Made by a program: the position numbers and the translations under genes | Notes under the pieces: generated by a model | The model's database searches: none | Seen by the model: only the letters and a program-made list of their open reading frames with translations | Told to the model about the DNA's origin: nothing | Shown: positions 422 to 15,705 of the stretch, piece after piece | Position numbering within the stretch: position 1 is the stretch's first letter | Layout: the number at the start of each line of letters is the position of its first letter | Assembly: GCA_024278345.1 (NCBI GenBank) | Contig: JAJRTK010000469.1 | Span: forward strand, 1 to 21,259 | Reading direction: 5' to 3' | DNA from: a bacterium | GTDB lineage: Bacteria > CSSED10-310 > JAJRTK01 | Length of the DNA stretch: 21,259 nt

Positions 422-962
422 TGGAAAAGGCGTGGTCTCGGGGCGTAGAGCTCAGGCAGGCAGATCGAGGACTGCCTTGGTGGCGCGGCGGTCTTCTCTG
501 GGCAAGACAGGGAGTGTGTCGGCGACACGGCGCTCTTCTCCAGGTAAGAAACGAATCTCCGGTGGAACCTCTTCGCCGCGGAAGGCGAGCCGATCTCGTG
601 TCCGGACATCCCGTCAAATTCCTGGCCGCGGCTTCTTCAAGGTTCGCCCGAGGTTAACCCGAGGCCGGCTCAAAATGGCCTTTCCGCTCTTGATCTTGGT
701 GTTGGCGGCCTCGGCTGTAGTTTGGGTCGTGGACAGCCGTACACGCCTCATCGAGGGAAGCTACGAGATCGGGCGGCTACGATCGGAGCTGGAGGATCTG
801 GAGATGCGAAACCGGCAGTTGCGGCTGGAGATCTCGTCACTGAGCCAGCCGGTGGATTTGGAGAGGACGATCCAGAAGTTGGGATTACAGCCGCCAACGC
901 CGGAGCATTTGTCCTTCATTCCTCCCCGTGGAGCTGACCTCTTTTCAGGGAGCGGCTCATGA
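411..962 (+). CDS. ftsL: FtsL-like divisome protein with a long basic N-terminal tail
   Basis: FtsL is a small bitopic protein that links FtsQ to the FtsW-FtsI septal synthase. Identity rests on position (between rsmH and ftsI) and architecture. Residues 89-107 (MAFPLLILVLAASAVVWVV) form one membrane segment. They are followed by a short periplasmic coiled coil (about 115-145, RLRSELEDLEMRNRQLRLEI) and the FtsL-type ending DLERTIQKLGLQPPTPEH. The protein is 183 aa, longer than the usual 90-120 aa. The extra length is an 88-residue cytoplasmic tail rich in Arg, Ser, Lys and Gly, with a repeated motif ARRSSLGK (25-32) and TRRSSPGK (39-46). ATG 411 follows AAGGA at a workable distance and overlaps the rsmH stop. 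The stop TGA overlaps the ftsI ATG (ATGA). Sequence conservation in FtsL is low, so the name depends partly on context. Confidence 0.82.
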   Translation: MRYNGKGVVSGRRAQAGRSRTALVARRSSLGKTGSVSATRRSSPGKKRISGGTSSPRKASRSRVRTSRQIPGRGFFKVRPRLTRGRLKMAFPLLILVLAASAVVWVVDSRTRLIEGSYEIGRLRSELEDLEMRNRQLRLEISSLSQPVDLERTIQKLGLQPPTPEHLSFIPPRGADLFSGSGS

Positions 963-2938
963 GAAAGAACGGCCATCAGCGGAGCCGCCAGCGGTTACGC
1001 CTCTTTGCGTGGGCGTGGATTCTGGGTTTTTCTGTTTTGGCGACAAGACTGGTTCAGCTCTCGGTGGTCGCCCAGTCCAAGTATCGTAAGCGGGCGCTCC
1101 TGCAGCACAAACGGGAAGTCCGACAGGCTCCCGGGCGCGGCTCGATTCTGGACCGAAACGGCGAGCTTTTGGGGATCAGCATCGATGTCGATTCCATTTT
1201 CGCGGCTCCAAGCTCCATGCAAGATCTCCCAAAGGCAGCCTTGCTCTTGGCGGGAGCTCTTGGCCGCACCCCGGCCCGATTAGAGAAAAGCCTGCGCCCC
1301 ACCTGAGACTTTGTCTGGCTCGCACGTCAGGTGAGCCCTGAAAACGCACGAGAAGTCTATGACTTGGGGCTTGCCGGAATAGGTTTCGTCAAGGAGAGCC
1401 GCCGGTTCTATCCAAAAAAGGAGCTGGCGGGCCAGTTGTTGGGTTTTGTCGATCTCGATGGCAAAGGGCTGGAAGGGTTAGAGCGGACATTTGACTTCGT
1501 CCTTCGAGGCCAAGGCGGGCGAGTGATTACAGAGATCGATGCAAAGCGGCGGCGCCTTCCAGTACTGGAACAGGTGATCGAAAGGCGCACTGCGGGGCGG
1601 GATTTGGTTTTGACCCTGGATCACGTGATCCAGCACATTGTGGAACGGGAGCTTTCCAGGGCCGTCAAGTCGGAGCGTGCAAAAAGTGGCGTGGTGGTGG
1701 TGTTTGATCCAAGGCTGGGTGATGTCTTGGCCATGGCGACGGCTCCTGGTTTCGATCCGAACCGGTTCCGGAAGTCGGCTGCGGCGGATTGGCGCAACCG
1801 GGCCCTTTCCGACACCTTCGAGCCAGGTTCCACCATGAAGCCGTTCGCCGTGGCCGGTTGTCTGGAAGAGAAGCGCTGCAACCCCGAGACCGTCATCGAT
1901 TGCGGGATGGGATCCTTCCGGATCGGCGGACATACCTTCACCGATCACCATCGCTACGGCTATTTGAGCGTGGCGGATGTCCTGAAGCACTCCTCGAATA
2001 TCGGGGCGATGAAAATTGCACTTCGCCTGGGCCGGCAGCGCTTGTACCAAACCCTGGGGGCGTTTGGCTTCGGCAAGAAGCTCACGGCGCTCTCCCAAGA
2101 AGCGGCAGGCCGTTTGCCCCCGCCGGAAAAATGGTCGAAAACGACCATCGCTGCCGTGGCCATGGGGTATGAGATGATGGCCACTCCACTCCAACTTGCC
2201 GCCGCTTATGGGGCAATTGCCAACGGAGGGCTCTTGCTCCGACCTCGGTTCGTGCTTTCTCCCAGCCATCTGGAGCCTTCCGAAGTACTGGGCCGCGTCT
2301 TGTCTACCAAGAATGCCCGAGCTCTTCGGAAGATGCTCCAAAGGGTCGTGGAAGGCGGTACGGGGAAGGCTGGACGCATCCAAGGCTTGACCGCGGCAGG
2401 GAAGACGGGAACGGCGAAAAAGTTGGATCCGCGCACCGGGAAATACTCGCCAACCGCGGTTCGCGCCACGTTTGTGGGAATGATCCCGGCGGAGGACCCA
2501 GAAATTGTCATCGTCGTCACCTTGGACGAGCCCAAGAAAAACCCGTGGGGCGGTCTGGCGGCCGCTCCGGTATTCCGGGCTATCGGACGACAAACCATGG
2601 GCTATCTGAGGACCTCGCGGCCCGTTGTCCCACCCGATGGCCTTCTTCCCGATCCAAAGCCCCGCGACTCTTCCAAAGGTCCCAACGGAGACAAACCGCG
2701 CCCACGTGATCTCGGCCACCCGCGCCGACCTCGAGCAGTTGAGTCGCCAGCGGATCTTGTGGGGTTGAGCATGAGGCGGGCATTGAGGGAGGCGCAAAAT
2801 CGAGGCTGGAGCTTGCGGGTCTCCGGGAGCGGTTATGCCGCGGCGGTCCATTTGGATGCCCAATCGGACAGGGAGCACCCCATCTGGAACGTGGCGTTCA
2901 AGCCAGGGCTCATCGGTGTCACAAAAGGAGGGCGGTAG
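959..2938 (+). CDS. ftsI: FtsI/PBP3 septal transpeptidase with PASTA domain, interrupted by an in-frame TGA
   Basis: FtsI is the class B penicillin-binding protein that cross-links septal peptidoglycan with FtsW. ATG 959 overlaps the ftsL stop. Read through codon 116 the protein is 659 residues: membrane anchor at about 13-35, an N-terminal dimerisation/pedestal domain, then the transpeptidase domain with S291-T-M-K, S345-S-N and K482-T-G. A C-terminal PASTA-like domain starts at about residue 595 (ADLVGLSMRRALREAQNRGW). The anomaly is TGA at 1304-1306. Upstream residues end KSLRPT and downstream residues in the same frame resume DFVWLARQVSPENAREVYDLG, the usual PBP pattern, so a single codon is affected and there is no frameshift. 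As written it gives a 115-aa and a GTG-initiated 535-aa product, the latter without a membrane anchor. TGA is a normal stop in neighbouring genes, so the code is standard. Sequencing error, recent mutation (for example CGA to TGA) or readthrough remain possible. Confidence 0.9.
1300..1333. other. Inverted repeat enclosing the ftsI in-frame TGA
   Basis: CACCTGA (1300-1306) and TCAGGTG (1327-1333) are perfect reverse complements separated by 20 bases. The in-frame TGA is the last three bases of the left arm, and the only nearby in-frame start codon (GTG 1331) lies in the right arm. The loop contains a small GAC-TTT-GTC mini-hairpin. The repeat may be a chance match inside coding sequence or a structure affecting decoding. 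It does not look like a bacterial selenocysteine insertion element. Confidence 0.4.
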
Positions 2939-3045
2939 TGTTCGTGAACCAGATCAGCTTAGCCAAGCCTGCAATGGGGTGTCACGGGATGGGTGCCCTC
3001 ATCGATCTTTCTCTGAAATGGACCCAGGAAGGGACCGGGCCTTGA
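2938..3045 (+). CDS. Small 35-codon reading frame in the murE-murF slot
   Basis: A GTG codon at 2938 overlaps the ftsI stop (TAGTG). It is preceded by AGGAGG at optimal spacing, better than most start sites in this cluster. The frame runs 35 codons and ends in TGA 3043-3045, overlapping the TTG start of mraY (TTGA). The product starts MFVNQISLAKPAMG and has no recognisable domain or signal peptide. About two thirds of third codon positions are G or C, like the neighbours. In other dcw clusters murE and murF occupy this place. By eye, the stretch AMGCHGMGALIDLSLK faintly resembles the GSRGMxMExVxEAL ending of MurF, so a deletion scar that keeps the upstream start signal and couples translation to mraY is one reading. 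A leader peptide or chance frame are alternatives. Confidence 0.45.
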   Translation: MFVNQISLAKPAMGCHGMGALIDLSLKWTQEGTGP

Positions 3046-4127
3046 TTTACCATCTCCTCTATCCACTCCACGACGTGATCTCGGTGTTACGGGTCTTCCG
3101 ATACATCACGCTTCGAACCGCCTACGCAAGCTTGACGGCCCTGGCCATTTCACTTCTCCTGGGCCCCGCCCTGATCCGGAGCCTCCGGCGTTTTCAGATT
3201 GGTCAGACAATCCGAGAAGACGGTCCCCAGAGCCATCAGAAGAAATCCGGAACTCCCACCATGGGCGGGCTGCTCATTCTCATCGCCACGGTACTGCCCA
3301 CGCTCATGTGGGCCGACCTCGGGAATCGGATGATCCACATCGTTCTCTTGACGACTCTGGCCCTGGGCGGCCTAGGTTTCTTGGACGACCTCTTGATGCT
3401 CCGGCGTGGCAAGAACGAGGGACTTCGACCGCGGCAGAAACTCGCGGGCCAGGTGGTGGTAGGCCTGCTATTGGGCACTTATCTCTACTTATACCCAGCC
3501 TCGGCGGAGCTTGGGAGCGCCCTTCCCGTGCCCTTCTTCAAGCACCTGGCGATTCCTTTGGGACTTGCCTGCATCCCATTTACCGCATTTGTGCTCGTGG
3601 CCTTTTCCAACGCCGTCAACCTCACCGATGGCTTGGATGGCCTCGCTATCGGCCCCACCATCGTCGCGGCTTCGGCTCTGGCCCTTCTTTCTTATCTGGC
3701 GGGACACCGGATCGCGGCCGACTATCTCCAGATCGCCGCCATCAGCGAAGCCGGAGAACTGACGATCTTTTGCGGCGCTCTCGTGGGGGCGGGACTGGGG
3801 TTCTTGTGGTTCAATTGCCATCCAGCGGAAGTCTTCATGGGGGACGTTGGCTCGCTTGCTCTGGGGGCCGCGCTAGCTACCGTGGCACTCTTGGTTCGCC
3901 AGGAACTCCTGTTTGCCGTAATTGGCGGCGTCTTTGTCTTGGAAATCCTCTCCGTGATCATCCAGGTAGGAAGCTTCAAGCTCCGGGGAAAACGGGTTTT
4001 TCGCATGTCTCCCTTGCATCACCATTTCGAACTCTTGGGGTGGCCGGAGTCAAAAGTCACCGTGCGGTTTTGGCTGATTTCCATCTTCTTCGCACTCCTG
4101 GCTCTTTCAACGCTGAAACTCCGATGA
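3042..4127 (+). CDS. mraY: Phospho-N-acetylmuramoyl-pentapeptide transferase MraY
   Basis: MraY transfers phospho-MurNAc-pentapeptide from UDP to undecaprenyl phosphate, forming lipid I at the inner membrane face. The start is TTG 3042: the next residues, IYHLLYPLHDVISVLRVFRY, match the usual MraY N-terminus, AGGAAGGGA precedes it at good spacing, and it overlaps the stop of the preceding small frame. ATG 3018 is an in-frame alternative. At 361 aa the length is typical for the family. Landmarks are PTMGG (about 71), the Asp-Asp pair about 115 in FLDDLLM, NAVNLTDGLDGLA (about 191-203), MGDVGSLALG, and the MSPLHHHFE segment (about 320-330), with about ten membrane segments between. All expected catalytic and nucleotide-binding residues are visible. 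murE and murF are not upstream, so their products must be encoded elsewhere. Confidence 0.96.
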   Translation: MIYHLLYPLHDVISVLRVFRYITLRTAYASLTALAISLLLGPALIRSLRRFQIGQTIREDGPQSHQKKSGTPTMGGLLILIATVLPTLMWADLGNRMIHIVLLTTLALGGLGFLDDLLMLRRGKNEGLRPRQKLAGQVVVGLLLGTYLYLYPASAELGSALPVPFFKHLAIPLGLACIPFTAFVLVAFSNAVNLTDGLDGLAIGPTIVAASALALLSYLAGHRIAADYLQIAAISEAGELTIFCGALVGAGLGFLWFNCHPAEVFMGDVGSLALGAALATVALLVRQELLFAVIGGVFVLEILSVIIQVGSFKLRGKRVFRMSPLHHHFELLGWPESKVTVRFWLISIFFALLALSTLKLR

Positions 4128-4377
4128 GGCGGCACAGCATGACCCACACAACAAGAGAAGGAAAAGGCGAAAACAAATCTCTTTTCTCGGGTTGCGTTCC
4201 GCTCCCGTCGCTCACCTCCGTTGCGCGCCGTCCGCCTATTGGCGCCCTCCAGCTAGAGCTCTGTCCGGAAAATAAGGAAGAACCCACCACCGGTATCGAC
4301 TCGTTTCTTATGAGCAGCCGGGGCTTTTCGGAGACGGGAAGTGTGCCGTTGCCCTCCATTCCAGAGGAGCAGCGCTG
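4128..4377 (+). other. 250-bp spacer between mraY and murD
   Basis: This is the first sizeable break in the overlapping gene chain. It holds an 80-codon frame (ATG 4139 to TGA 4379-4381), whose stop overlaps the murD TTG (TTGA). That frame has only a weak, distant GAGG before its ATG, and its composition and predicted product give no sign of a protein family. I treat it as probably non-coding. No convincing -35/-10 pair or terminator hairpin was found. The region may carry an internal promoter for murD onwards or be left over from lost sequence. Confidence 0.4.
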
Positions 4378-5832
4378 TTGAATCTCTCGAACAGAAAAGA
4401 GATCCCGAAAAACGGGAATGAGCTGCCAAGGGGAAAACGAGTCCTGCTGGTGGGGCTGTCGAGAAGCGGCGTGGCGGCGGCTCGGGCCCTCGCACCATTG
4501 GGTTACGAGCTTCGTGGCGCCGACAGTTCTATCGACTTGGATCCGGCGGTCCGATCCGATCTCGAAAAGTTGGGCGTTACCCTGGAACTGGGGCCTCACG
4601 GGGAAAAAAGTTTCTTGGGTTCCCATTGGATCGTCCTAAGCCCCGGCGTTCCCCGGGATCTTGCTCCTTTGGTCTCTGCTGGGGCAGAGGAGATTCCCAT
4701 TCTGGGAGAACTGGAACTGGCCTTCCGCTTGGCCCGTCTGCGGAGCCGCGGCGAGGATCGGGGCAAGTTCGTGGCGATCACCGGGACCAATGGCAAGAGC
4801 ACCACCACCATGATGGTGGGCGCGATGCTCTCCGCCGCCGGGAAGGACCATCTGGTGGGCGGCAACATCGGGACGCCCCTTTCTCATCGCCTGGAATCGG
4901 TTCCGGAGTGGATTGTCGCGGAGGTGAGCTCCTTCCAACTCGAGGCGGTAGAGCGGTTTCGGCCTCGCGTGGCAGCATTGCTCAATCTTTCAGAAGACCA
5001 TCTGGAGCGCCATGGAGGGTTCGGAGCTTACGTTGAGGCAAAGGCCGCCATCTGCCAGAGGATGGGGGCTGGCGATTGCTTGGTGTACAACGCTGACGAC
5101 GATGCGGTCGTCGCCCTTGTCAAGCGATGGCCCACACTGAAAAAGATGCCCTTTTCACCGCTGAGGCCGGTGGAAGGTGCCTGCATCGTCGATGAATGCT
5201 TGTCACTTTGGCGCCATGGCCAGGTGGTGCCGGTCTTGGAAATCCGGCGGGTTCCCCTTGAGGGACTCCACAATCAAGAGAACGCACTGGCCGCTCTGGC
5301 CGTTGGCTCCGAGCTTGGATTGTCCGACAAGGCCATGTCAAAGGCCCTTGAAGAATACCGACCGCTGCCCCATCGGTGCCAGCTTGTGGGCGAATGCCGC
5401 GACGTTCGCTTTTACGATGACTCCAAGGCGACAAATGTCGGAGCCGCCGTCAAGACGTTGGAGAGCTTTCCGGGCACCGTGGTCCTCATCGCCGGAGGGA
5501 AGGACAAAGGCGGTGACCTTTCCCCCCTCGTGGAGAGCATCGGCCGAAAGGCGCGTTGGGTCGTGCTCATGGGAGAGGCTCGGAAAAGATTGGCGAAAAG
5601 TCTTCGGGAGTTCGGGCGCTTCGAAATGGCGATCTCCTTGACCGAGGCCGTGGAGCTTGCGTTTCAACGTGCGGAACCAGGAGACTCAGTGGTGTTGGCT
5701 CCGGCATGCTCGAGTTACGATATGTTTCGGGACTATCGCCACCGCGGAGAGGCTTTTTGCCGTGCGGCCGCCGCGGTTTGCAGCAGGGAAACAGCCGCGT
5801 CCGGGGCAAGTCGCCGGGAGTTGAAAGAATGA
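4378..5832 (+). CDS. murD: UDP-N-acetylmuramoylalanine--D-glutamate ligase MurD
   Basis: MurD adds D-glutamate to UDP-MurNAc-L-Ala in the cytoplasm, an ATP-dependent step of peptidoglycan precursor synthesis. The 484-aa frame has the N-terminal UDP-binding Rossmann motif VLLVGLSRSGVAAARAL, the Mur ligase P-loop ITGTNGKSTTT (about residues 135-145), GGNIGTPL, EVSSFQLE, the metal-site motif NLSEDHLERH, and the C-terminal substrate motif YDDSKATNVGAA followed by IAGGKDKGGDL. No upstream in-frame ATG exists. TTG 4378 is preceded by AGAGGAG eight bases away, so the non-ATG start is well supported. About 20 residues precede the first conserved strand. The stop TGA overlaps the ftsW ATG (ATGA), indicating translational coupling. 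Length and motifs are typical for an intact enzyme. Confidence 0.96.
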   Translation: MNLSNRKEIPKNGNELPRGKRVLLVGLSRSGVAAARALAPLGYELRGADSSIDLDPAVRSDLEKLGVTLELGPHGEKSFLGSHWIVLSPGVPRDLAPLVSAGAEEIPILGELELAFRLARLRSRGEDRGKFVAITGTNGKSTTTMMVGAMLSAAGKDHLVGGNIGTPLSHRLESVPEWIVAEVSSFQLEAVERFRPRVAALLNLSEDHLERHGGFGAYVEAKAAICQRMGAGDCLVYNADDDAVVALVKRWPTLKKMPFSPLRPVEGACIVDECLSLWRHGQVVPVLEIRRVPLEGLHNQENALAALAVGSELGLSDKAMSKALEEYRPLPHRCQLVGECRDVRFYDDSKATNVGAAVKTLESFPGTVVLIAGGKDKGGDLSPLVESIGRKARWVVLMGEARKRLAKSLREFGRFEMAISLTEAVELAFQRAEPGDSVVLAPACSSYDMFRDYRHRGEAFCRAAAAVCSRETAASGASRRELKE

Positions 5833-6965
5833 AAAGCGGGACTGGGGGACGATATGATCGCACCATCATGGTGGCCGCATTGATCTTGATGGCCGTGGGC
5901 TGCGTCATGGTCTATTCCGCGTCCGGCGTGAAGGCTGCTGAACTCTACGGAGATCCCTACCACTTCTTTCGCCGCCAGCTTGTTTTCGTGATCCTGGCCG
6001 TGCCACTTCTTGGCTTTTGTGCTCGGATCCCCGCGGCCACGGTCTACCGGGTGGCCTTGCCGTTGGCACTTTTGACCGCGGGGTTGCTGGTCCTGGTACT
6101 CATTCCCGGGATTGGCCTCAAAATTGGTGGAGCCAGAAGGTGGTTGGGGACGGCCGGTGCCAGGTTACAGCCTTCAGAGTTGGCCCGGTTGGCCCTGGTG
6201 GTGATCCTCGCTCGTTTCCTGGCCGTCCGCCTGGAACGTGGAGAGGAAGAAAATACACGGTTGACCCTCTTTCCCGCGCTGTTCATCAGCGGATTGCTCT
6301 CGGGCCTGGTCCTACTGGAACCGGATTTTGGGACCATGGCAGCCATGGGAGGCGTGACGCTTTGCCTCATCTTCGTGGCAGGTGTCCCGTCAAGGCAAAT
6401 CGCGCGAATCGTCACGGTGGGCTTGGTTTGCCTGGCCCTACTCATCGCCTCCGCGGGCTACCGGCGGAGCCGGTTTATGGCCTTCCTCTCACCCGACGCC
6501 GACCCAGCCGGTTCCGGATACCATGTTCGCCAATCTCTCTTGGCCGTCGGGGCAGGAGGCGTCATCGGTGTCGGCATTGGCAACAGCCGCCAAAAACTGT
6601 TCTACTTACCCGCGGCTCACACGGACTTCATCTTTGCTGTCATCGCGGAAGAAACGGGGCTTGTGGGGAGCTTTACGGTGGTGCTGCTCGTGGCTCTCAT
6701 ACTATTTCGGGGACTCTCCATTGCCAGGCGTCAAAAGGAGTCGTTTCGGATGTTGTTGGCCGTGGGCCTCACAACCAACTTCGGTCTCAGTGCGCTCATA
6801 AATTTTGGGACCGTCTTGTCGCTGCTACCCACGACGGGAATGAGCTTGCCGTTGGTGAGTTATGGGGGCTCGTCGCTCCTTTGCCAATCTGTCTCCTTGG
6901 GGCTGTTGTTATCTCTGTCACGCGCTCCCTCTCCGCCGATCCGCGGGCGGAGAGGTAGACGCTAG
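5829..6965 (+). CDS. ftsW: FtsW septal peptidoglycan glycosyltransferase (SEDS family)
   Basis: FtsW polymerises lipid II into septal glycan strands together with FtsI. The start is ATG 5829, overlapping the murD stop; a longer upstream frame is only the murD shadow. The 378-aa product has about ten membrane helices. SEDS landmarks include VYSAS in the first helix, QPSELARLALVVILA, LLEPDFGTMAAM, the long periplasmic loop with GYHVRQSLLAVGAGG and GNSRQKLFYLPAAHTDFIFA (the Asp of AHTDF being the proposed catalytic residue), and MSLPLVSYGGSSLL near the end. The C-terminus is short and basic (PPIRGRRGRR). In textbook clusters murG follows. Here murC starts only 11 bases later, so murG is absent from this locus. 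FtsW rather than RodA is inferred from the dcw position. Confidence 0.95.
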   Translation: MKSGTGGRYDRTIMVAALILMAVGCVMVYSASGVKAAELYGDPYHFFRRQLVFVILAVPLLGFCARIPAATVYRVALPLALLTAGLLVLVLIPGIGLKIGGARRWLGTAGARLQPSELARLALVVILARFLAVRLERGEEENTRLTLFPALFISGLLSGLVLLEPDFGTMAAMGGVTLCLIFVAGVPSRQIARIVTVGLVCLALLIASAGYRRSRFMAFLSPDADPAGSGYHVRQSLLAVGAGGVIGVGIGNSRQKLFYLPAAHTDFIFAVIAEETGLVGSFTVVLLVALILFRGLSIARRQKESFRMLLAVGLTTNFGLSALINFGTVLSLLPTTGMSLPLVSYGGSSLLCQSVSLGLLLSLSRAPSPPIRGRRGRR

Positions 6966-6976
6966 AGGGGGTCGCC

Positions 6977-8377
6977 GTGTTCGGAAAAGTTAGACATCTA
7001 CATTTCGTGGGCATAGGCGGCATCGGGATGTGCGGAATCGCCGAGATTCTACTGAACCTGGGATACAAAGTGAGCGGCTCGGATTTGCGTGAAAACTCGG
7101 CAGTGGCGCGGCTCCGCACCCTAGGAGCGACCATCTATATCGGGCATCGGGCTGAGCAGGTTGCCCAGGCGAGCGTCGCGGTTTTTTCCTCGGCTGTGCC
7201 CAAGGAAAACGTGGAGCTGGAGGCGGCCAGGAGGGCGGGAGTTCCAGTGATCCCCAGGGCCGAGATGCTCGCCGAGTTGATGCGCCTCAAGCATGGCATC
7301 GCCGTGTCTGGGAGTCATGGAAAAACTTCCACGACATCGATGATCGCCGCTCTTTTATCCAACGCGGGTTTGGACCCCACCATCGTGGTCGGCGGGCGTG
7401 TCGATTCCATGGATTCTGGCGCCAGAGTCGGCACGGGCCGCTTCTTAGTGACGGAAGCCGACGAATCGGATGGCTCGTTCAACAAACTCTCCCCCACTGT
7501 GGCTGTGGTCACATCGATCGACCGGGAGCACATGGACCACTACGGTGAGATGGAGGGCCTTTACGCGGCGTTTGCCGATTTCGCGAACAAGGTTCCCTTT
7601 TACGGTTCGGTGGTTCTTTGCCTCGACGATGCCGGCTGTCAGGCACTCCTGGCCAAAGTCCGGAAAAGGATCGTTACCTATGGAATCTCCGCCCAAGCAC
7701 ACTTTCGGGCAACAGCGATGAAGCTAGGCGCCTTCGAAGCCTCCTACGACCTAGTCGTGGAGGGGAGCTTGTATGGGCGAGTCATCCTCAAGGTCGGAGG
7801 GATGCACAATGTTCTCAACTCCCTTGCCGCCGCTGCCGTCGGGGTCGAGCTCGGATTGGCGCCCCAGAGAATCCTGGACGGCTTGAAGCGATACCAAGGC
7901 GTCGATCGGCGATTCCAACGCCGAGGAGAGGTGGGCGGAATCCTGGTGGTGGACGACTATGGTCATCATCCCACCGAGATCCGGGCGACACTCAGTGGGG
8001 CGAGCCTGCTGGGCCGGCGGATCTTGACGCTTTTTCAGCCTCACCGGTACAGCAGGACAGCCGATCTCTTTGATCAGTTTGCAGGAGCCTTCCACCTGGC
8101 GGACTTCCTCACGATTCTCGACGTTTATCCGGCCGGTGAGAAGCCGATTCCAGGGATCGACGCTCCTAGCTTGGTGGCGGCCATCCTGCGCCACGGCCAT
8201 CGCCATTGCCAATACAGCCCGGAACGTAAATCGGCCGTGGATAAGATTTGCTCCCTAGCCCGGAATGGAGACCTGGTCCTGCTCTTGGGAGCTGGCGACA
8301 TTACGGGACTGGCCGATGACCTTCTGTCGCGCCTCAAGGAGATGCATCCCCGAGGCCGGGCCAAGGGAGGTCCATGA
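6977..8377 (+). CDS. murC: UDP-N-acetylmuramate--L-alanine ligase MurC
   Basis: MurC joins L-alanine to UDP-MurNAc with ATP, the first amino-acid addition of the stem peptide. The start is GTG 6977, with AGAGGGGG just upstream; the protein then reads FGKVRHLHFVGIGGIGMCGIAE, the expected N-terminal nucleotide motif. At 466 aa it is full length. Further motifs are the P-loop AVSGSHGKTSTTSMIAALL (about 109-127), VTEADESDGSF, VVTSIDREHMDHYG, GMHNVLNSLAA and the C-terminal DDYGHHPTEIRATL and FQPHRYSRT. There is no fused Ddl or MurB domain, unlike the MurC-Ddl fusions known in some phyla. The stop TGA overlaps the ftsQ ATG (ATGA), so murB and ddl, which often sit here, are not at this locus. Confidence 0.96.
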   Translation: MFGKVRHLHFVGIGGIGMCGIAEILLNLGYKVSGSDLRENSAVARLRTLGATIYIGHRAEQVAQASVAVFSSAVPKENVELEAARRAGVPVIPRAEMLAELMRLKHGIAVSGSHGKTSTTSMIAALLSNAGLDPTIVVGGRVDSMDSGARVGTGRFLVTEADESDGSFNKLSPTVAVVTSIDREHMDHYGEMEGLYAAFADFANKVPFYGSVVLCLDDAGCQALLAKVRKRIVTYGISAQAHFRATAMKLGAFEASYDLVVEGSLYGRVILKVGGMHNVLNSLAAAAVGVELGLAPQRILDGLKRYQGVDRRFQRRGEVGGILVVDDYGHHPTEIRATLSGASLLGRRILTLFQPHRYSRTADLFDQFAGAFHLADFLTILDVYPAGEKPIPGIDAPSLVAAILRHGHRHCQYSPERKSAVDKICSLARNGDLVLLLGAGDITGLADDLLSRLKEMHPRGRAKGGP

Positions 8378-9279
8378 TGACGGCGCGAAATCGAACGGAC
8401 AGAGGGAGAGCGCGGAGTGGACGGAGCCCGCGACGCTTGGCATCACCAACAGCGGCGGGATCGCCTTGGACCCAGAACCCCGAGGGGCAGTTGCGGCGGT
8501 GGGGTTGGCGCTGTTTCTGGTTGCTGGCCCCGTGCGGTCTGGCGGCGGTATTGCTCGTGGGTTGGCCTTATTTCACGGAGCTCGGTCTCTTTCGCCTCCA
8601 TGACCTAACAGTGGAGGGAGTCCGTGGACTCAAGGAGGGCCGCGTGCTGGAGTTGGCGGCCTTGGAGAAAGGGGAGAATCTACTGAGACTCGATCTCCGG
8701 GAAGTGGAGAAGCGGATCGAGGCCGATCCTAGGGTGGCCAGAGCCCATGTGAGGATTCGTTGGCCTTCGGGTCTCTTGCTCCAGATCAAGGAACGCGAGC
8801 CTGTGGCTCGGATTCTTGGGCGTGGGTTCCTGGATGGACGTGGCTTCTTTTGGGAGGGGGGATCGCGGTGGGCACACCTAGATCTCCCACTCGTCACCGG
8901 AGTTACGGAGGGACTGGGAAAAAGGGAGCGCTCGGGGCTCTTCAAGGTTGCCGTCCGGCTTTTGAGGGGGGCGAAGCTCTATCTGTCTCATCTTCGACTG
9001 TCGGAGCTTTCGTTCGGTCCAGAGGGGCTGGTTCTCTATTTTGAAGGGGGCCTTGGTCCCGTTCTTCTAGGATACGGGAGGGGAGCGGAGAAGCTGGAGC
9101 TTCTGTCGAGGTTCCTTCGCTCTCGCTCCGGAAAGGAAGTCGCCGGTGTGCTGGATCTGCGCTGGAAGGGTCGCGTGATCGCCCGGCCTGCGGCAGACAC
9201 CGTTTCCATGGTATCTGAGAAGATTCATTTTCCTTTCGCGGTCGCTGCTCTAGACATGGATACGAGAGAGTATGGATAA
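8374..9279 (+). CDS. ftsQ: Cell division protein FtsQ (POTRA domain)
   Basis: FtsQ is a bitopic divisome scaffold that recruits the FtsL-containing complex. The 301-aa product starts at ATG 8374, overlapping the murC stop, with AGGGAGG just upstream. It has a basic N-terminal cytoplasmic tail of about 45 residues (rich in Arg, Ser and Thr), one membrane segment at about 46-68 (FWLLAPCGLAAVLLVGWPYF), then a POTRA domain: LFRLHDLTVEGVRGLKEGRV, ENLLRLDLREVEKRIEADPRVARAHVRIRWPSGLLLQIKEREPVARI. The beta domain follows and ends soon after VLDLRWKGRVIARP. It is the last gene of the tightly overlapping stretch. TAA 9277-9279 lies in the loop of a small ATGGA/TCCAT palindrome. Identification from the POTRA pattern plus context is strong. 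Confidence 0.93.
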   Translation: MMTARNRTDRGRARSGRSPRRLASPTAAGSPWTQNPEGQLRRWGWRCFWLLAPCGLAAVLLVGWPYFTELGLFRLHDLTVEGVRGLKEGRVLELAALEKGENLLRLDLREVEKRIEADPRVARAHVRIRWPSGLLLQIKEREPVARILGRGFLDGRGFFWEGGSRWAHLDLPLVTGVTEGLGKRERSGLFKVAVRLLRGAKLYLSHLRLSELSFGPEGLVLYFEGGLGPVLLGYGRGAEKLELLSRFLRSRSGKEVAGVLDLRWKGRVIARPAADTVSMVSEKIHFPFAVAALDMDTREYG

Positions 9280-9624
9280 ATCCATTGATGTAGTTATTGC
9301 AGTTTTTTTTTTGAGGGGGCAGAATGACGGGTAATGGCCTTCCGTTGGAGGAAACTGGCTGATCGTGGTACGAGGATATCGTTTCGGCTGTTTTCTGGCT
9401 CGTGGTTAAAGAGTGAGTGTCAGGCCCGTTCTTGGGCGGAGGGCGAGTGGAATCATAGCCGGTTCTTGGAGCGGAAATGAAGAATTTTGGTCGTGTCTAT
9501 GTCTTGTGGCGAGTGAAAAAAGGGAATAGGGCTTCAACCCAAGAAGAGATGAGTATTTTGATCTAACGCGGTCTTCAAAATACATGAACCGACCCACAAT
9601 CAGGAGGAGGGGGGTTCGTCCATC
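9280..9624 (+). other. 345-bp intergenic region before ftsA
   Basis: No supportable gene is present. The stretch looks more AT-rich than the flanking genes, opens with a run of ten T (9303-9312), and ends with a strong ribosome binding site (CAGGAGGAGG, about 9600) for ftsA. The T run lies 17 bases after a 5-bp palindrome (9272-9285), too distant and weak for a confident terminator. TTGATC at about 9558 followed 17 bases later by TACATG is a poor sigma-70-like candidate. The length and composition suggest a separate promoter for ftsA-ftsZ, which is common in dcw clusters, but I cannot place it. Confidence 0.45.
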
Positions 9625-10860
9625 ATGGCAAGGAAGGAAGATATTTTTGTCGGCCTCGACATCGGGACGACGAAGATCTGCGCGGTGATCGGTGAGATGA
9701 CTGATGACGACGGAGTGGAGATCATTGGCATCGGCAAGGCGCCCAGCAACGGCCTGCGGAAGGGCGTGGTCATCGATCTTGAGACAACAGTGGAATCGAT
9801 CACCAAAGCGGTGGAAGATGCGCGGCACATGGCGGGCATCGATATTGATCGAGTTTATGCGGGAATTGCTGGTGGGCATATCAAAGGGTTCAATTCTCGT
9901 GGTGTCATTGCGGTGAGTGGCAAGGATCGGGAGATCACACAGCAGGATATTGATCGAGTCATGGAGGCGGCGCGTGCAGTGGCGATTCCTTCGGATCGGG
10001 AAGTGATACACACTCTTCCCCAAGAGTTTATCGTCGATGATCAGCATGGAATCAAGAAGCCTCTGGGGATGTATGGAGTGCGTTTGGAGACGGACGTGCA
10101 TATTGTGACAGGGGCAGTGACAAGTGCGCAGAATATCATAAAGAGCGTGAACAATGCCGGCCTTGGCGTGGAAGATATCGTGCTCCAGCAGCTCGCCTCG
10201 GCGGAGGCAGTCCTCACGGATGACGAGAAGGAGCTTGGTGTAGCTCTCATCGACATGGGTGGCGGCACGACGGACCTGGCGATCTTCGTGGAGGGCTCCA
10301 TCTGGCACACGGCGGGCTTGTCCCTTGGAGGGAACAATGTCACCAACGATATCGCCATGGGCCTTTCAACGCCGAATCATGAGGCTGAGCGGATCAAAAA
10401 ACTCTATGGCTGCGCCATGGAGGACATGGTGGACCCGGAAGAATGCATCGAGGTTCCGTCCGTGAGCGACCGACCGCCCAGAAAGCTCTTCCGGCATGCT
10501 CTTTGCGCAATTATCGAGCCGAGAATTGAGGAGATTTTTGAGCTTGTGGCGCGGGAGATCCGACAGACAAGATACGATGATCTCATTGGTGCGGGAATCG
10601 TGATGACAGGCGGAGGCTCGAGTCTTGCCGGGATTTGTGAGCTCGGAGAGCAAGTCTTTGGGCTGCCCGTTCGGTTGGGGATGCCCAAGCGGAAGATCGG
10701 CGGACTCGTGGACCTGGTGAGCTCTCCAATTTATGCCACGGGAGTCGGGCTCGTTCTTTTTGGGTGCAAGTATGGCGGAATCTCTGGATTCCAGTCCAAC
10801 AATCAACAGTTTCATAGCATTTTTCAAAGGATGAAAGAGTGGTTTGCCGATTTGCTCTGA
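9625..10860 (+). CDS. ftsA: Cell division protein FtsA (actin-like membrane tether)
   Basis: FtsA is an actin-fold ATPase that anchors FtsZ filaments to the membrane and recruits later divisome proteins. The 411-aa product starts at ATG 9625 behind AGGAGGAGG. Visible landmarks are the phosphate-1 motif FVGLDIGTTKICAVIGE (8-24), the FtsA-specific 1C domain (VYAGIAGGHIKGFNSRGV onward), HTLPQEFIVDDQHGIKKPLGMYG, phosphate-2 VALIDMGGGTTDLAIF (about 205-220) and the adenosine motif GIVMTGGGSSLAGI. The C-terminus FHSIFQRMKEWFADLL is the amphipathic membrane-targeting helix. Third codon positions appear less GC-rich than in murC or ftsI. ftsZ follows after 135 bases, which show no clear promoter or terminator. 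Length is typical and no key residue is missing. Confidence 0.97.
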   Translation: MARKEDIFVGLDIGTTKICAVIGEMTDDDGVEIIGIGKAPSNGLRKGVVIDLETTVESITKAVEDARHMAGIDIDRVYAGIAGGHIKGFNSRGVIAVSGKDREITQQDIDRVMEAARAVAIPSDREVIHTLPQEFIVDDQHGIKKPLGMYGVRLETDVHIVTGAVTSAQNIIKSVNNAGLGVEDIVLQQLASAEAVLTDDEKELGVALIDMGGGTTDLAIFVEGSIWHTAGLSLGGNNVTNDIAMGLSTPNHEAERIKKLYGCAMEDMVDPEECIEVPSVSDRPPRKLFRHALCAIIEPRIEEIFELVAREIRQTRYDDLIGAGIVMTGGGSSLAGICELGEQVFGLPVRLGMPKRKIGGLVDLVSSPIYATGVGLVLFGCKYGGISGFQSNNQQFHSIFQRMKEWFADLL

Positions 10861-10995
10861 CCTGGAATCCTCGCTGAGCCTTGGGAGGCAAGACGAAAGC
10901 GAGAATGGCTTTTATGGCTAGGGCGGAACAAATGTTTTGGAGCGAGTCGGTAGCGATTTTTTCAGCGGGGCCAAGGGAAGAAAGAGGGGCGATCG

Positions 10996-12228
10996 ATGCA
11001 GAGTTATGACGACGGGTATTCCATGAAGCCAACGATCAAGGTGATTGGGATCGGGGGTGGTGGAGGCAATGCCATCAACCGGATGATTGAGGACAAGATC
11101 CCGGGGGTCGAGTTCATTGCGGCCAATACGGACATGCAGGCTTTGAGTACCTCGAAATCGGCCATCAAATTGCAGTTGGGGGAGCGTTTGACCCGGGGGC
11201 TGGGTGCCGGCTCCAATCCTTCCCGGGGCCGCGACGCTGCGCTGGAGGATGAAGACCGCATTCGGGAGCAGCTCGTGGACTCGGACATGGTTTTCGTGAC
11301 GGCCGGGATGGGGGGAGGCACGGGAACGGGGGGCGCTCCGGTAGTGGCGCGCATTGCGCGGGAACTGGGCGCTTTGACCGTGGCCGTGGTGACCAAGCCC
11401 TTCCTGTTCGAAGGGAGTATCCGTTTGCGGCAAGCCGAAGAGGTAATCGCCGATCTGAGGAAAAATGTCGATACGATTATCACGATTCCGAACCAGCGGC
11501 TCTTGGAGATCGTGGAGAAAAAGGAGACCCTTATGGGAGCCTTCCGGAAGGCCGATGAGGTACTCCGACACGCGGTACAGGGCATCAGTGACCTCATCAT
11601 TGTGCCTGGCCTCATCAACCTGGATTTTGCCGATGTCCGTACCGTGATGGGCAATATGGGGATGGCTCTCATGGGGACTGGCATCGCCGAGGGCGATAAC
11701 CGCGCGCACGACGCGGCGATGCAGGCCATCCGATCTCCGTTGTTGGAAGATACCTCCATCGACGGTGCGAGGGGGATCCTCATCAACATTAGCGGTTCCA
11801 CCGGGCTCTCCTTGATGGAGGTGAACGAGGCGGCGGAGATTGTTCGCGGCGCTGCTGCCGCGGATGTGCATGTGATTTTCGGGGCCGTCCTCGACGATGC
11901 GTTGGAGGGCTTTATGAAGGTGACGGTCATTGCTACGGGCTTCGAAACACCGCCACCTTCTCCGCGAACTCCCGGTTCTCAAGGGCAGCGGACGCGGCGC
12001 GTGGGACCTCCCGGAAGCGTGGTTGGCAACTACGGAGGTGGAGTCCGGCAGCCAACTCCAACGTTCACAGGTTCCATGTTAGACCGCCCGGAGCAGCGGG
12101 AGACCGTGCCGCCGGAGTCACACTCCGCCGGGGTCCCGACAAACCGGGAGCGGAAGCCGCCTGTCAGGCCTCCCATCGACTACGATGAGCTGGATATCCC
12201 CACCTTCCTTCGCCGGTCTTACGATTGA
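10996..12228 (+). CDS. ftsZ: Cell division protein FtsZ (tubulin-like GTPase)
   Basis: FtsZ polymerises at mid-cell into the Z-ring. The 410-aa product starts at ATG 10996 behind AGAGGGGCG; ATG 11023 (MKPTIKVIG) is a shorter alternative. Motifs are [25 protein letters not shown], the signature [19 protein letters not shown] (about 99-117), [17 protein letters not shown], the T7 loop [11 protein letters not shown] and the end of the core KVTVIATGF (about 308). A Pro/Arg/Gly-rich linker of about 80 residues leads to the C-terminal peptide [15 protein letters not shown], which binds FtsA. Small variations are GGAP where GAAP is common and IPNQ where IPND is usual. The stop at 12226-12228 lies inside the end of the convergent regulator gene (10-base overlap), leaving no intergenic terminator. 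Confidence 0.97.
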
Positions 12229-13679
12229 GGCGAGGCGAGTTTGCGGGCCAGAGTGTTCCGGCCGATCTGGAGCAAGCGCGCTGCGGCGCTTCGGTTGCCG
12301 CCGCACTGCTCCAGAACGTATTCGATGTAGGCTTGTTCTACTTTTTTGAGAGGCAGTAGCGGAGTCTGGAAGGTTTTGGCCGGGTCGTTTCTTGTCGTCG
12401 CCAGAGCCCCAAAAGAGACGGATTCAGGGCCAATCTCTCGTTCAGGAGCCAGAACGATGGCCGACTCGATGCAGTGTTCTAGCTCGCGGACGTTACCAGG
12501 CCAAGCGTGGGAGTGAAGGAGCGCTCGCGCCGCAGGGGAAAGCCTGAGATCGCGTCTTTGGTGGCGCTGGGAGAGCTCGAACATGAAGTGGTCGATGAGG
12601 CGTTCAAGATCGCCGTGGCCGCGGTGCCGAAGTGGAGGCAGAGGGATTTCCACCACCCGGAGACGGTAGTACAGGTCTTGGCGAAATTGGCCTTCCGCAA
12701 CGAGTTCTTCGAGGTTGCGGTGGGTGGCGCAGACGAAGCGGACGTCGGCCGTCTGTTTCCGAGTGCCCCCCACCTTGAAAAAGCTCTTCGACTGGAGAAG
12801 TCCCAGCAATTTCCCCTGGACCGGGAGCGGGAGTTCGCCGATCTCGTCCAGAAAGAGGGTTCCTCCGGCAGCAGCCTGTAGCTTCCCATCGGAGGTGCGG
12901 TCAGCGCCGGTGAAAGCCCCACGTTCGTGGCCAAAAAGCTCGTTCTCGATGAGCTGATCCGGCAGCGCGGCGCAATCAATTTTGACAAACGGGGCGAGCC
13001 GTCGGCGGGAGTTGTCGTGGATAGCGCGGGCAATGAGCTCTTTGCCCGTGCCGCTTTCGCCGCGGATAAGCACCGTCGCCTCCGTGGCTGCCGCCCGGCC
13101 CGTCTTTTCGTAGACTTCCAGCATCGGGTTTGACTCGCCGATAATCTCGTTGAAATGAAACGACAGAGGATGGCGGTGCTCCGGGCGGAGCTGGCTCCTG
13201 AGGCTCGTGATCTCCAAGAGCCCCGCCACCTGGCTTGCCAGAGCGGCCAAGAGAGTTTCGTCCGACCTTTGGAATCCATTGCCCCGCTTGTTCAAAAGTT
13301 GCAAGACGGCGATGACCTGGTCGGCCTCCCCAAAGACGGGGACCGCCAGCAGACTTCGCGTCCGGTAGCCAGTCATGGCGTCGATTTTTCCGGAAAACCT
13401 GGGATCGTTGGTGTTCGGGGGGATGCTGAGCAACTCTCCGGATTGAGCCACCCACCCGGCGACCCCCTCGCCCAGACGCAGACGAATCTCCGAAATCTCC
13501 GGCAAGTGAGCCACGTGGCTCACAAGCTCTTGCCGTGCGTGATCCACCAGGTAGAGAGTGCCGCGATCCGCCAGAAGTCGCCGGGTCACGTCATCTACAA
13601 TCCTGCGAAGCAGTGCCGTCAAATCGACTTGCTTGCCCAAGATCCCCTGCCTGAGATCCGCTAACCGCTCCTCCGGCAT
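12219..13679 (-). CDS. GAF-AAA+-Fis sigma-54-dependent transcriptional activator
   Basis: This is an NtrC-type enhancer-binding protein that remodels sigma-54 RNA polymerase. From the chosen start it has 486 residues. An N-terminal GAF sensor domain (about 20-165) contains [18 protein letters not shown] and [24 protein letters not shown]. The AAA+ domain has Walker [13 protein letters not shown] (about 205), the sigma-54 contact loop GAFTGA (about 254), Walker [13 protein letters not shown] (about 272) and [11 protein letters not shown]. The C-terminal Fis-type helix-turn-helix is [35 protein letters not shown]. There is no receiver domain, so the signal is probably a ligand or partner sensed by GAF. 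ATG 13679 has AGGAGG four bases upstream. TTG 13748 overlaps the stop of the upstream hydrolase gene, has GGGGAGGTGG at good spacing, and would add 23 residues. The lower third-position GC of that stretch favours the ATG. Confidence 0.92.
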
Positions 13680-13744
13680 ACCACCTCCTAAGTCAAACAG
13701 GCCGTGAACGATGGAATCAGCGTATCTGGCAATTGCCGTGCTCG

Positions 13745-14563
13745 TCAAAGCGCTACCACCTCCCCTTCGCGGGCGACGAAGGCGTTGGCGAAGCTCAGCC
13801 GGGCCCGAGCCTCGATAGTGGAAACCTGGCAGTCGTCACGCATGGGATCATGGTGGAAAAGGGCTAGCCGACCTGCGCCACAGATCCGGGCCGCTCGCAC
13901 CGCTTGAGGCCAAGTCGAATGACCCCATCCTCGCCTGGACGGACCCTTTTTTCCGGCGTACTCTTCGTCGGTGAACTGAGCGTCGTGGATCAGAAGGTCC
14001 ACGCCCTCCGCCAGCTCAAGGAGCCGTGCGTCCAGCTCGGGGCCGTGTTCCACGTCCGTCGCGAAAACCAGGGAACTCTCCGAATCCTCGATCCGGTACG
14101 CCACCACCCCGTCGGGATGTGCCATGTCCAGAGCCGTGACCCGAAAGGGACCCATCTCCCAAGGCGCGCCCGTCGCCACCGTCCGGAATTCCAGATGCGC
14201 CGGAATCGCGTCCAGGGTGATGGGGAAGGTCGGCGGTTGCATTTGCGCGTCCAGCGCAGCCCGCAGCGTCCCTGAGGACCTTTTTGCTCCCAGGAACCTA
14301 AGTTTCGAGTCAGGATGGAACGCCGGGCCAAAGAACGGAACTCCCTGGATGTGATCCCAATGCACATGAGTGAAGAGAAGGGTCGCTTCCATAGCCTGCC
14401 AACCGTAGCTTTCGCCAAGAGCCCGAAGCCCGGTGCCCCCATCGAGAATGAGCCGCTCACCCTGAGATGAAACCTCCACGCAGGTCGTATTTCCGCCGGT
14501 TTGAACATATCGTGCGCCGCTGACGGCGATGCTTCCTCGAACTCCCCAAAATCGAACGTCCAT
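13745..14563 (-). CDS. Metallo-beta-lactamase-fold hydrolase, possible cyclic-nucleotide phosphodiesterase
   Basis: The 272-aa product belongs to the MBL superfamily subgroup that starts with MDVRFWGVRGSIAVSG and GGNTTCVEV. These are soluble dinuclear metal hydrolases often annotated as PhnP- or cAMP-phosphodiesterase-like. Metal motifs visible are THVHWDHIQG (HxHxDH, about 64-70), DMAHPDG, FATDVEHG and LALFHHDP near the C-terminus, with LLIHDAQFTDEEY and GWGHSTWPQAVRAARICG between them as in this subgroup. The ligand set appears complete, so it is probably active; the substrate is unknown. ATG 14563 is preceded by GAGGT at good spacing and gives the canonical N-terminus; longer starts at 14579 or 14617 are possible. 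It is first in a two-gene unit with the sigma-54 activator, behind a sigma-54-type promoter. This suggests it makes or removes a signal for the GAF domain, which is inference only. Confidence 0.88.
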   Translation of the reverse strand: MDVRFWGVRGSIAVSGARYVQTGGNTTCVEVSSQGERLILDGGTGLRALGESYGWQAMEATLLFTHVHWDHIQGVPFFGPAFHPDSKLRFLGAKRSSGTLRAALDAQMQPPTFPITLDAIPAHLEFRTVATGAPWEMGPFRVTALDMAHPDGVVAYRIEDSESSLVFATDVEHGPELDARLLELAEGVDLLIHDAQFTDEEYAGKKGPSRRGWGHSTWPQAVRAARICGAGRLALFHHDPMRDDCQVSTIEARARLSFANAFVAREGEVVAL

Positions 14564-14741
14564 GGTGAACCTCGCTTCCATCGTTAGCCGGGTCGTGCTC
14601 TTCCGCCGGGGCGCCAAGGCTGCATCCCTCTCTTCTCTCTAGACTCTGGTCCGCTCCCGACGGGAGCCCGTTTCGCCGATCTTGCCATCGGTGGCCACCA
14701 GGGCCGAGCACACACCGTGAATTGTAGAATCCGAATCTCCC
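14564..14741 (-). other. Structured 5' leader of the hydrolase-regulator operon
   Basis: If transcription starts about 12 bases downstream of the sigma-54 -12 element, the mRNA has a leader of nearly 180 bases without a supportable gene. It contains a perfect hairpin, GCTCCC-GAC-GGGAGC as read on the + strand (14653-14667). An adjacent imperfect one is CCGAT/ATCGG (about 14675-14690), next to the palindrome GGTGGCCACC. No known riboswitch pattern was recognised. The leader could be regulatory, or it could simply be GC-rich sequence. Confidence 0.35.
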
Positions 14742-14750
14742 CCTTAAAAG
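14722..14750 (+). promoter_or_regulatory. Possible sigma-70-type promoter for the HEXXH gene
   Basis: TTGTAG (14722-14727) and TAAAAG (14745-14750) are separated by exactly 17 bases and point toward the gene at 14902. Each hexamer matches the consensus at about four of six positions. The site abuts the divergent sigma-54 promoter, so the two could compete for polymerase. The match is modest and could be chance. Confidence 0.25.
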
Positions 14751-14751
14751 A

Positions 14752-14768
14752 AGCAAGGAGCGTGCCAG
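14752..14768 (-). promoter_or_regulatory. Sigma-54 (-24/-12) promoter for the hydrolase-activator operon
   Basis: On the - strand the sequence reads CTGGCACGCTCCTTGCT. It matches the sigma-54 consensus YTGGCACG-N4-TTGCW at every defined position, with correct GG-to-GC spacing. It points at the metallo-hydrolase gene starting at 14563, whose partner gene encodes a sigma-54 activator. A simple random-base estimate for such a match on both strands of this window is about 0.0025. Promoter function is not demonstrated, but sequence, orientation and context agree. Confidence 0.82.
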
Positions 14769-14852
14769 CGAAAAACTACACAAAAACCAGGTTATTTCTC
14801 CACGGTCGATCCAGTTCGGCGCAAAAGCCTGGTCCAGAATGGAGCATTTGTT

Positions 14853-14877
14853 CAGATTTATACGGTTTTGAAATCTG
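14853..14877. promoter_or_regulatory. Candidate upstream activator binding site (inverted repeat)
   Basis: CAGATTT (14853-14859) and AAATCTG (14871-14877) form a perfect 7-bp inverted repeat with an 11-bp spacer, about 90-110 bp upstream of the sigma-54 promoter. This is the usual distance for an enhancer site bound by the Fis-type helix-turn-helix of an NtrC-family activator. A second short palindrome, AACCAGGTT (14785-14793), lies closer. The repeat also sits just upstream of the divergent gene at 14902, so it could influence that gene too. Confidence 0.4.
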
Positions 14878-14901
14878 GAGGCAAAACAGTACCATGAACC
14901 C

Positions 14902-15705
14902 ATGTGGATTTATTTCCGATTCTGCTTTCTCGGGGCCGCTTGGACTGGTTTGGGCTGGAGCCTGGCGCTGGCTGGTAGCTTGCCCGACGGCGCCGGTGTG
15001 AGGCGCGGAGCCAGGCCGGGCTGGGACTCGGCGTTGCTCGGTGGTCCGCCGTGGATCGGGAGTGGGCGCTTCTTGCTGCCAGATCCCGACACCGGTCGGT
15101 TCCGGAGGTTGGCGTCGGGACGTCCGGGTCGGGATCTCGGGGGAATCGGGGCGGGCTCGACCTCGAAAAAGTCTCGACCTCGGTGGGCTTTGCGCTTTTT
15201 GGCCGGCGGCGCCATCGCCTTCGCGGCCCATGAAAGCGCCCATGTGGCCTTTGACCTGGCTTTCGGCGCGGGGCCCGGCCTTGAGGGAGTCGATTTCCAC
15301 GGGATTCCCTTCTTCGCCATCACTCATCATTCCGATGTTTCGGATCGCCAGCGGTACGTCATTGCTTCGGCGGGCTTCAACATCCAGCACCTCGGCAACG
15401 AGTGGCTACTGAGTCGGACTCCTGACCTTCGTCGGCGGCCTTTCCCGCTGGAGAAGGGTATTCTTGCCTTTAACCTCTTGACGTCGTTGGGGTATGCCGG
15501 AGCGGCTTTTGCGCGGACAGGACCCCTCCAGCGGGACACCCGGGGGATCTCCATGGGGCAAGGAGTGGATGAACGCTGGGTGGGACTGCTTGTTTTGGCG
15601 CCGGCGCTATTGGATGGCTATCGGTACATCAGGCCCAAGGCGCGTTGGGCTCGCTGGTCGTCGAGGGCCGTGAAGCTGGGCATGATTTTGCTGGCCATCC
15701 GTTAG
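14902..15705 (+). CDS. Conserved-looking membrane-associated protein with an HEXXH motif, function unknown
   Basis: I do not recognise a named family. The 267-aa product begins with a likely signal peptide or membrane segment (residues 1-27) and a region PPWIGSGRFLLPDPDTGRFRR. A hydrophobic helix, ALRFLAGGAIAFAAHESAHVAFD, follows, in which H110-E-S-A-H114 matches the zinc metallopeptidase pattern HEXXH at the end of a membrane segment, loosely like M50-type proteases. After it come VDFHGIPFFAITHHS, RQRYVIASAGFNIQHLGNEWLLSR, then two further hydrophobic stretches (about 190-205 and 228-243). A third metal ligand cannot be assigned; His and Glu in FNIQHLGNEW are candidates. ATG 14902 lacks a well-spaced ribosome binding site (GGAGG is about 20 bases away), so the start is uncertain. 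It is divergent from the sigma-54 operon. A structural or lipid-related role is equally possible. Confidence 0.7.
   Translation: MWIYFRFCFLGAAWTGLGWSLALAGSLPDGAGVRRGARPGWDSALLGGPPWIGSGRFLLPDPDTGRFRRLASGRPGRDLGGIGAGSTSKKSRPRWALRFLAGGAIAFAAHESAHVAFDLAFGAGPGLEGVDFHGIPFFAITHHSDVSDRQRYVIASAGFNIQHLGNEWLLSRTPDLRRRPFPLEKGILAFNLLTSLGYAGAAFARTGPLQRDTRGISMGQGVDERWVGLLVLAPALLDGYRYIRPKARWARWSSRAVKLGMILLAIR

Follow-up and report, generated by a model that had tools for sequence, protein, structure and literature searches.

The window, by which we mean the whole 21,259-nt stretch of DNA analyzed in this study, carries a perfect -24/-12 element in front of a gene for an MBL-fold hydrolase and a gene for a GAF-type activator. 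This arrangement raises the question of whether the two genes form an autoregulated sigma-54 module and, if so, which other genes such a module would control and what the hydrolase would contribute to it.

The two-gene operon and its promoter

The initial annotation described a minus-strand unit of two genes encoding an MBL-fold hydrolase and a GAF-AAA+-Fis activator with an intact GAFTGA loop, and our Pfam searches and alignments agreed with this description. The features of the unit and of its upstream region are as follows.

13745..14563, minus strand: MBL-fold metallo-hydrolase, 272 aa (PF12706; start at ATG 14563, with a longer start possible at 14617)
12219..13679, minus strand: GAF-AAA+-Fis sigma-54 activator, approximately 486 aa from ATG 13679 (Pfam, Shine-Dalgarno sequence, alignment, and NKFDE)
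13683..13689, minus strand: Shine-Dalgarno sequence AGGAGGT of the activator gene (sequence)
14752..14767, minus strand: sigma-54 (-24/-12) promoter TGGCACGCTCCTTGCT, an exact consensus match with an equivalent element before most orthologous pairs
14564..14741, minus strand: predicted untranslated operon leader, approximately 178 nt, from the distance between the promoter and ATG 14563

The hydrolase matched PF12706 at 3e-21, and the metal-binding residues HxHxDH, H149, D170, and HH237-238 were invariant in 34 homologues, which fits a two-metal enzyme from the RNase Z/PhnP branch. Its structure model was confident (pLDDT 94). The nearest structures were RNase Z (Z 29-30) and YhfI (Z 29), and further neighbors comprised a PhnP-family diphosphatase, a nucleotide-bound Brucella protein, yeast PDE1, and Apyc1. 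These folds favor a phosphodiester or nucleotide substrate without choosing one. The protein reached the cut-off of no named NCBIfam family; the best match was RNase Z (TIGR02651), which despite the close fold yielded 58.3 bits against a cut-off of 292.95 bits, and the cyclic-nucleotide phosphodiesterase model NF041851 yielded 40.1 against 400 bits.

The activator contained the domains PF01590 (GAF), PF00158 (AAA+), and PF02954 (Fis). An AAA+ domain with a GAFTGA loop and Walker motifs, together with a Fis-type HTH, identifies the protein as a sigma-54 activator, and the aromatic-T position of the loop was retained across the orthologues. The longest activator ORF starts at TTG 13748 and overlaps the stop codon of the hydrolase gene. 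The start is probably ATG 13679 rather than TTG 13748, because AGGAGGT precedes the former, residues 1-21 of the long form were modeled at low confidence (pLDDT <50), and most orthologue alignments begin near ATG 13679. The NKFDE motif was present in the GAF domain, and most orthologues retained it with minor substitutions (K to R; E to Q, V, or L). This motif is conserved in most characterized cNMP-binding GAFs (PMC4411481) and distinguishes the cNMP-binding GAFs (PMC11977230). At the level of this motif, the GAF domain of the activator may be classed as cyclic-nucleotide-binding.

The perfect sigma-54 promoter claimed for the minus strand was likewise recovered. The element TGGCACGCTCCTTGCT at 14767-14752 exhibited 0 mismatches to TGGCACGNNNNTTGCW, for which a first-order Markov model predicts 0.0047 exact matches in the window and 1.35 in the 6.06-Mb genome; the genome contained 6 exact matches compared with 2 for a reversed control pattern. 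In view of this chance expectation and of the genome-wide counts, the exact match alone is suggestive and not decisive. The element possesses the features of a sigma-54 promoter, namely GG and GC at -24/-12 with fixed spacing in a consensus context, and these were kept in the orthologues. With position -24 assigned to the second G of the GG, transcription is predicted to start near 14741 and to run toward the pair. RpoN is encoded in the source genome (550 contigs, 88% complete), and we infer that the operon promoter depends on it. The promoter was located 204 nt from the hydrolase gene, compared with 37-91 nt in most orthologous pairs, and a leader exceeding that of the relatives is accordingly predicted.

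Conservation of the pair and its upstream palindromes

The homologue search, in which each species was represented by one genome, covered 80 relatives of the hydrolase. The results of tblastn revealed an activator orthologue (44-61% identity) directly after the hydrolase gene in 36 of the 80. The paired loci were derived mostly from Myxococcota or 'deltaproteobacterial' MAGs, in addition to Archangium, Polyangium, Minicystis, and Labilithrix. Approximately nine more genomes that were first scored as unpaired hold the pair with another copy of the hydrolase gene, and in two genomes (L289 and L291) the activator orthologue had no adjacent hydrolase gene. A large conserved neighborhood was rejected, since no family clearly recurred at a fixed place beyond groups of close relatives, simple ORF calling being weak in GC-rich DNA.

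The first scoring gave 30 paired loci, and in 19 of them a hand-weighted -24/-12 score of at least 0.85 was obtained before the pair; 2% of random 400-nt stretches of the same loci reached this score. The element was also present before orthologous pairs that the first pairing filter had missed. It matched the consensus exactly in L035, L036, and L044 and nearly exactly in L038, L039, L034, and L042; weak promoters were found in the orthologous pairs L086, L091, L096, and L097, the promoter or the upstream palindromes were weak or unrecognizable in some others (e.g., L104), and inspection of the orthologous pairs revealed no promoter before L309. Most unpaired relatives of the hydrolase carried no -24/-12 element at the equivalent place. 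The initial annotation had staked its proposal on conservation of the -24/-12 site upstream of orthologous pairs, and on examination the site was found to be conserved there.

A palindromic expectation-maximization search identified de novo a 17-bp palindrome, TGnTCCAnnnTGGAnCA, upstream of the pairs, with a log-odds of 238 compared with 43-47 for three shuffled inputs. The 37 upstream regions contained 82 sites, or about two copies per locus; the density was 8.75 per kb there and 0.47 per kb in the remainder of these loci. Because circularity was to be avoided, the palindromic matrix was rebuilt without the window. The features relevant to the choice of enhancer are as follows.

14830..14846, no strand: candidate enhancer UAS 1, TGGTCCAGAATGGAGCA, 20.5 bits, best match in the whole window; center 72 bp from the -24 GG
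14807..14823, no strand: candidate enhancer UAS 2, CGATCCAGTTCGGCGCA, 15.4 bits, second best in the 21-kb window; center 49 bp from the -24 GG
14853..14877, no strand: inverted repeat CAGATTT-11-AAATCTG with 7-bp arms, at chance level and judged not to be the enhancer

The centers of UAS 1 and UAS 2 lie 23 bp apart, and their sequence and conservation suggest that they are cognate upstream activator sites of the nearby promoter. The upstream palindrome scored far higher for paired than for unpaired hydrolase genes (Mann-Whitney p = 4e-16, although p-values here and below overstate independence because the sequences are related). Two unpaired genes were outliers in this score, and one of them, L078, ends at a contig edge just after the hydrolase gene. 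In L289, the palindrome was still present upstream of the activator gene that has no hydrolase neighbor. The distances from palindrome center to GG clustered at 50, 61, 72, 83, 94, and 106 bp, with a best spacing period of 11.1 bp, and 0 of 5000 jittered sets were as periodic. Helical phasing of this kind would be expected if the activator, bound to DNA, loops to one face of the promoter. The genome contains five further exact -24/-12 matches, and the enhancer matrix detected no good UAS near any of them.

These results bear on three other readings of the upstream region. The inverted repeat at 14853-14877, which the initial annotation had proposed as the enhancer, is real and is located at enhancer distance. 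However, 8.7% of simulated 160-mers contain such a repeat with 7-bp arms, the window contains 30 of them, and the common motif of the orthologues is instead the palindrome found at 14807-14823 and 14830-14846; it is thus extremely improbable that the activator uses the inverted repeat. The notion that the -24/-12 match is fortuitous and that the operon is transcribed from another promoter would be in keeping with the 1.35 matches expected by chance per genome and with the unusually long distance to the hydrolase gene. Against this notion, the position of the element and the phased enhancers are conserved, and we regard it as very improbable. A different sigma-54 activator could also use the promoter and palindromes while the GAF activator of the operon regulates something else, and myxobacterial genomes are rich in such activators, 53 having been reported in Myxococcus xanthus (PMC3162934). 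Nevertheless, the palindrome tracks the adjacent activator gene, is lacking upstream of unpaired hydrolase genes, and persists before the activator of L289, which renders this explanation quite unlikely. Control of the operon by its own activator through the phased palindromes is the reading that we retain.

Other palindromes and an ORF in this region deserve mention. The third-best enhancer-like palindrome of the window (15042-15058, 13.6 bits) lies inside a divergent ORF, approximately 284 bp from the promoter. In L036 and L041, a near-perfect palindrome, TGGTCCATTTCGGATCA, occurs approximately 406 nt into the hydrolase gene at an identical coding position, and may be a coding coincidence or an intragenic site. 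The divergent ORF itself (14902-15705, 267 aa), which begins just downstream of the inverted repeat, contains an HExxH motif (HESAH) and hydrophobic stretches, matched no Pfam or NCBIfam family, and is possibly a membrane metallopeptidase.

An SPFH gene as candidate second target and the proposed circuit

A search of the source genome for the enhancer with one mismatch allowed returned 15 places. Contig C233 of this genome carried tandem palindromes (20.6 and 15.5 bits, 20 bp apart) located 118-138 bp upstream of a -24/-12 element, TGGTACGGAGCTTGCT, which faces the gene of an SPFH/Band-7 protein of approximately 500 residues (G000:C233). This protein belongs to PF01145 (Band_7; 6e-24, 85.5 bits against a gathering score of 23.6 bits). 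SPFH homologues in pair-bearing genomes exhibited 28-39% identity. The UAS and -24/-12 element preceded the homologues of G063, G069, G071, G073, and G084, and weaker versions preceded those of G082 and G083; the arrangement was not seen at distant Band-7 proteins of other families.

With the gene of the source genome excluded, a UAS of at least 14 bits was present within 450 nt in 9 of 14 strong SPFH homologues, compared with 2.7% of random stretches (binomial P about 1e-11). Some of the nine genes belong to genomes that had initially been listed as unpaired; of four such genomes, three do encode the activator. Of 39 activator-bearing genomes, 14 contained an SPFH homologue, compared with 1 of 17 others (Fisher p = 0.017), most of the genomes compared being drafts. 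The closest SPFH homologue, L212 (59% identity), has no enhancer, and the SPFH link is therefore common but not universal. Among 40 fetched regions, most of which surrounded matches to the UAS pattern, a good promoter was also present only at SPFH genes. A large regulon was rejected because spaced UAS-plus-promoter searches over 26 genomes remained at about the level of the reversed control. In Polyangium, a good -24/-12 element was observed downstream of tandem GCTCCGTTTTGGAGC arrays at G083:C121:96507-96607, G084:C122:150274-150397, and G084:C228:11273-11374; a related but distinct activator probably uses these arrays as its enhancer.

The proximity of the pair to ftsZ had led to the suggestion of a link to division or envelope stress. 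None of the other loci examined had ftsZ in the vicinity of the pair. Because ftsZ is a neighbor only in the source genome, the division link is unsupported and was rejected, whereas the SPFH target provides indirect support for a link of the circuit to membrane or envelope function. In the window, the ORF list, assigned mostly by eye, indicated a division and cell-wall cluster at 35-12228 (rsmH-ftsL-ftsI-mraY-murD-ftsW-murC-ftsQ-ftsA-ftsZ), which appears to have no murE, murF, murG, murB, or ddl between its members. The ftsI ORF (959-2938, plus strand) is split by an in-frame TGA at 1304-1306, possibly through a sequence error or because the gene is broken.

On the basis of these findings, we propose a circuit in which activator dimers would bind at least two phased copies of TGnTCCAnnnTGGAnCA that precede the -24/-12 promoter. 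Upon receipt of a signal by its GAF domain, the activator would drive the hydrolase gene, its own gene, and, in a good share of genomes, an SPFH/Band-7 membrane-scaffold gene at another chromosomal place. The hydrolase might then remove or alter a nucleotide-type ligand of the GAF domain and thereby shut off the circuit. The comparative data on the conserved pair, promoter, and palindromes support well the autoregulated sigma-54 module envisaged at the outset; the predicted operon, promoter, enhancers, autoregulatory layout, and second target are each supported by genome comparison. With the shut-off step excepted, we assign a probability of approximately 0.75 to the reading that the locus is a sigma-54 operon under positive autoregulation, its small regulon including an SPFH membrane scaffold.

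The role of the hydrolase is considerably more tentative. Together, the folds close to the hydrolase, the NKFDE motif, and the class III cyclases of the source genome (at least 8 loci) suggest, as the most economical guess, a nucleotide signal that is destroyed by the co-induced hydrolase. A nucleotide feedback loop between hydrolase and GAF domain is compatible with all three and is plausible; nonetheless, that the hydrolase shuts off the circuit through the GAF ligand, the nature of which is inferred as well, appears to us somewhat less probable than its converse. The complete scheme, an undescribed circuit of Myxococcota and allies in which the GAF domain senses a cyclic or other nucleotide, one enhancer drives both the operon and the SPFH gene, and an MBL phosphodiesterase destroys the signal, is rather unlikely to hold in all its parts. 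Another possibility, which we likewise find doubtful but worth considering, is a local autoregulatory loop in which the hydrolase serves as an effector (e.g., in processing of RNA or stress-damaged nucleotides) and cooperates with the SPFH protein in responding to membrane or RNA stress, in the manner of RtcR-controlled RNA repair. RNase Z is both among the closest folds and the top NCBIfam match, a stress response is suggested by the SPFH target, and an SPFH gene has been reported inside the rtc locus of Pseudomonas aeruginosa (PMC13086221). However, the activator carries a GAF domain and lacks CARF, the RNase Z cut-off was not reached (58 of 293 bits), and most fetched UAS matches elsewhere revealed no other target.

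The positively autoregulated operon with its predicted SPFH target would provide an orphan activator family with a testable regulon, and would join an uncharacterized MBL phosphodiesterase-like enzyme and an SPFH protein in one circuit. The genomes concerned include the culturable genera Polyangium, Minicystis, and Archangium. If the feedback step is true, the circuit would constitute a compact, self-limiting nucleotide sensor acting on sigma-54.

Comparison with known systems

We compared the operon with characterized systems that share some of its parts. A paper combining these parts was not found in the open-access literature, and one could exist in a subscription journal. The best NCBIfam match of the activator was NifA, which has the same GAF-AAA+-Fis domain order; the score was 354.5 bits, below the TIGR01817 cut-off of 528.85 bits. 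The enhancer of NifA, with the consensus TGT-N10-ACA, differs from TGnTCCAnnnTGGAnCA, and the window activator is coupled to an MBL hydrolase. The MBL hydrolase and sigma-54-type regulator of the GPMC system (NCBIfam; Geobacter/Pelobacter) form a similar combination, but the window proteins scored far below its cut-offs (22.7 of 360 and 137 of 1200 bits). A defense system was also rejected, PADLOC having matched only the AAA+-HTH part of the activator. The hydrolase shares its fold and metal ligands with the YhfI/PhnP/RNase Z branch, whereas its identity to these proteins was at most 24% over the structural alignments, with no named cut-off reached.

In RtcR/rtcBA, a sigma-54 activator likewise controls an operon for nucleic-acid enzymes. 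RtcR senses through a CARF domain, whereas the window activator would sense through GAF, and its operon contains neither RtcA nor RtcB; against the RtcR model NF038308, the activator scored 307 of 650 bits, with only the AAA+-HTH part matching. The Psp and Bac systems place membrane-stress proteins under sigma-54 control, as proposed here; PspF lacks an N-terminal sensor domain, and the target in the present case would be an SPFH protein instead. The bac operon has a putative sigma-54 site upstream and encodes a PspA-family protein (PMC10948618).

A similar layout in a myxobacterium is that of nla28S-nla28 of Myxococcus xanthus, a two-gene operon with an autoregulating sigma-54 activator (PMC9765219). 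Unlike the window operon, Nla28S-Nla28 is a two-component system with a histidine kinase partner, and tandem 8-bp half sites have been reported for Nla28. Autoregulated sigma-54 operons are thus known. The present locus adds a defined candidate enhancer, a conserved enzyme as partner, and, in many genomes, a membrane scaffold as predicted target.
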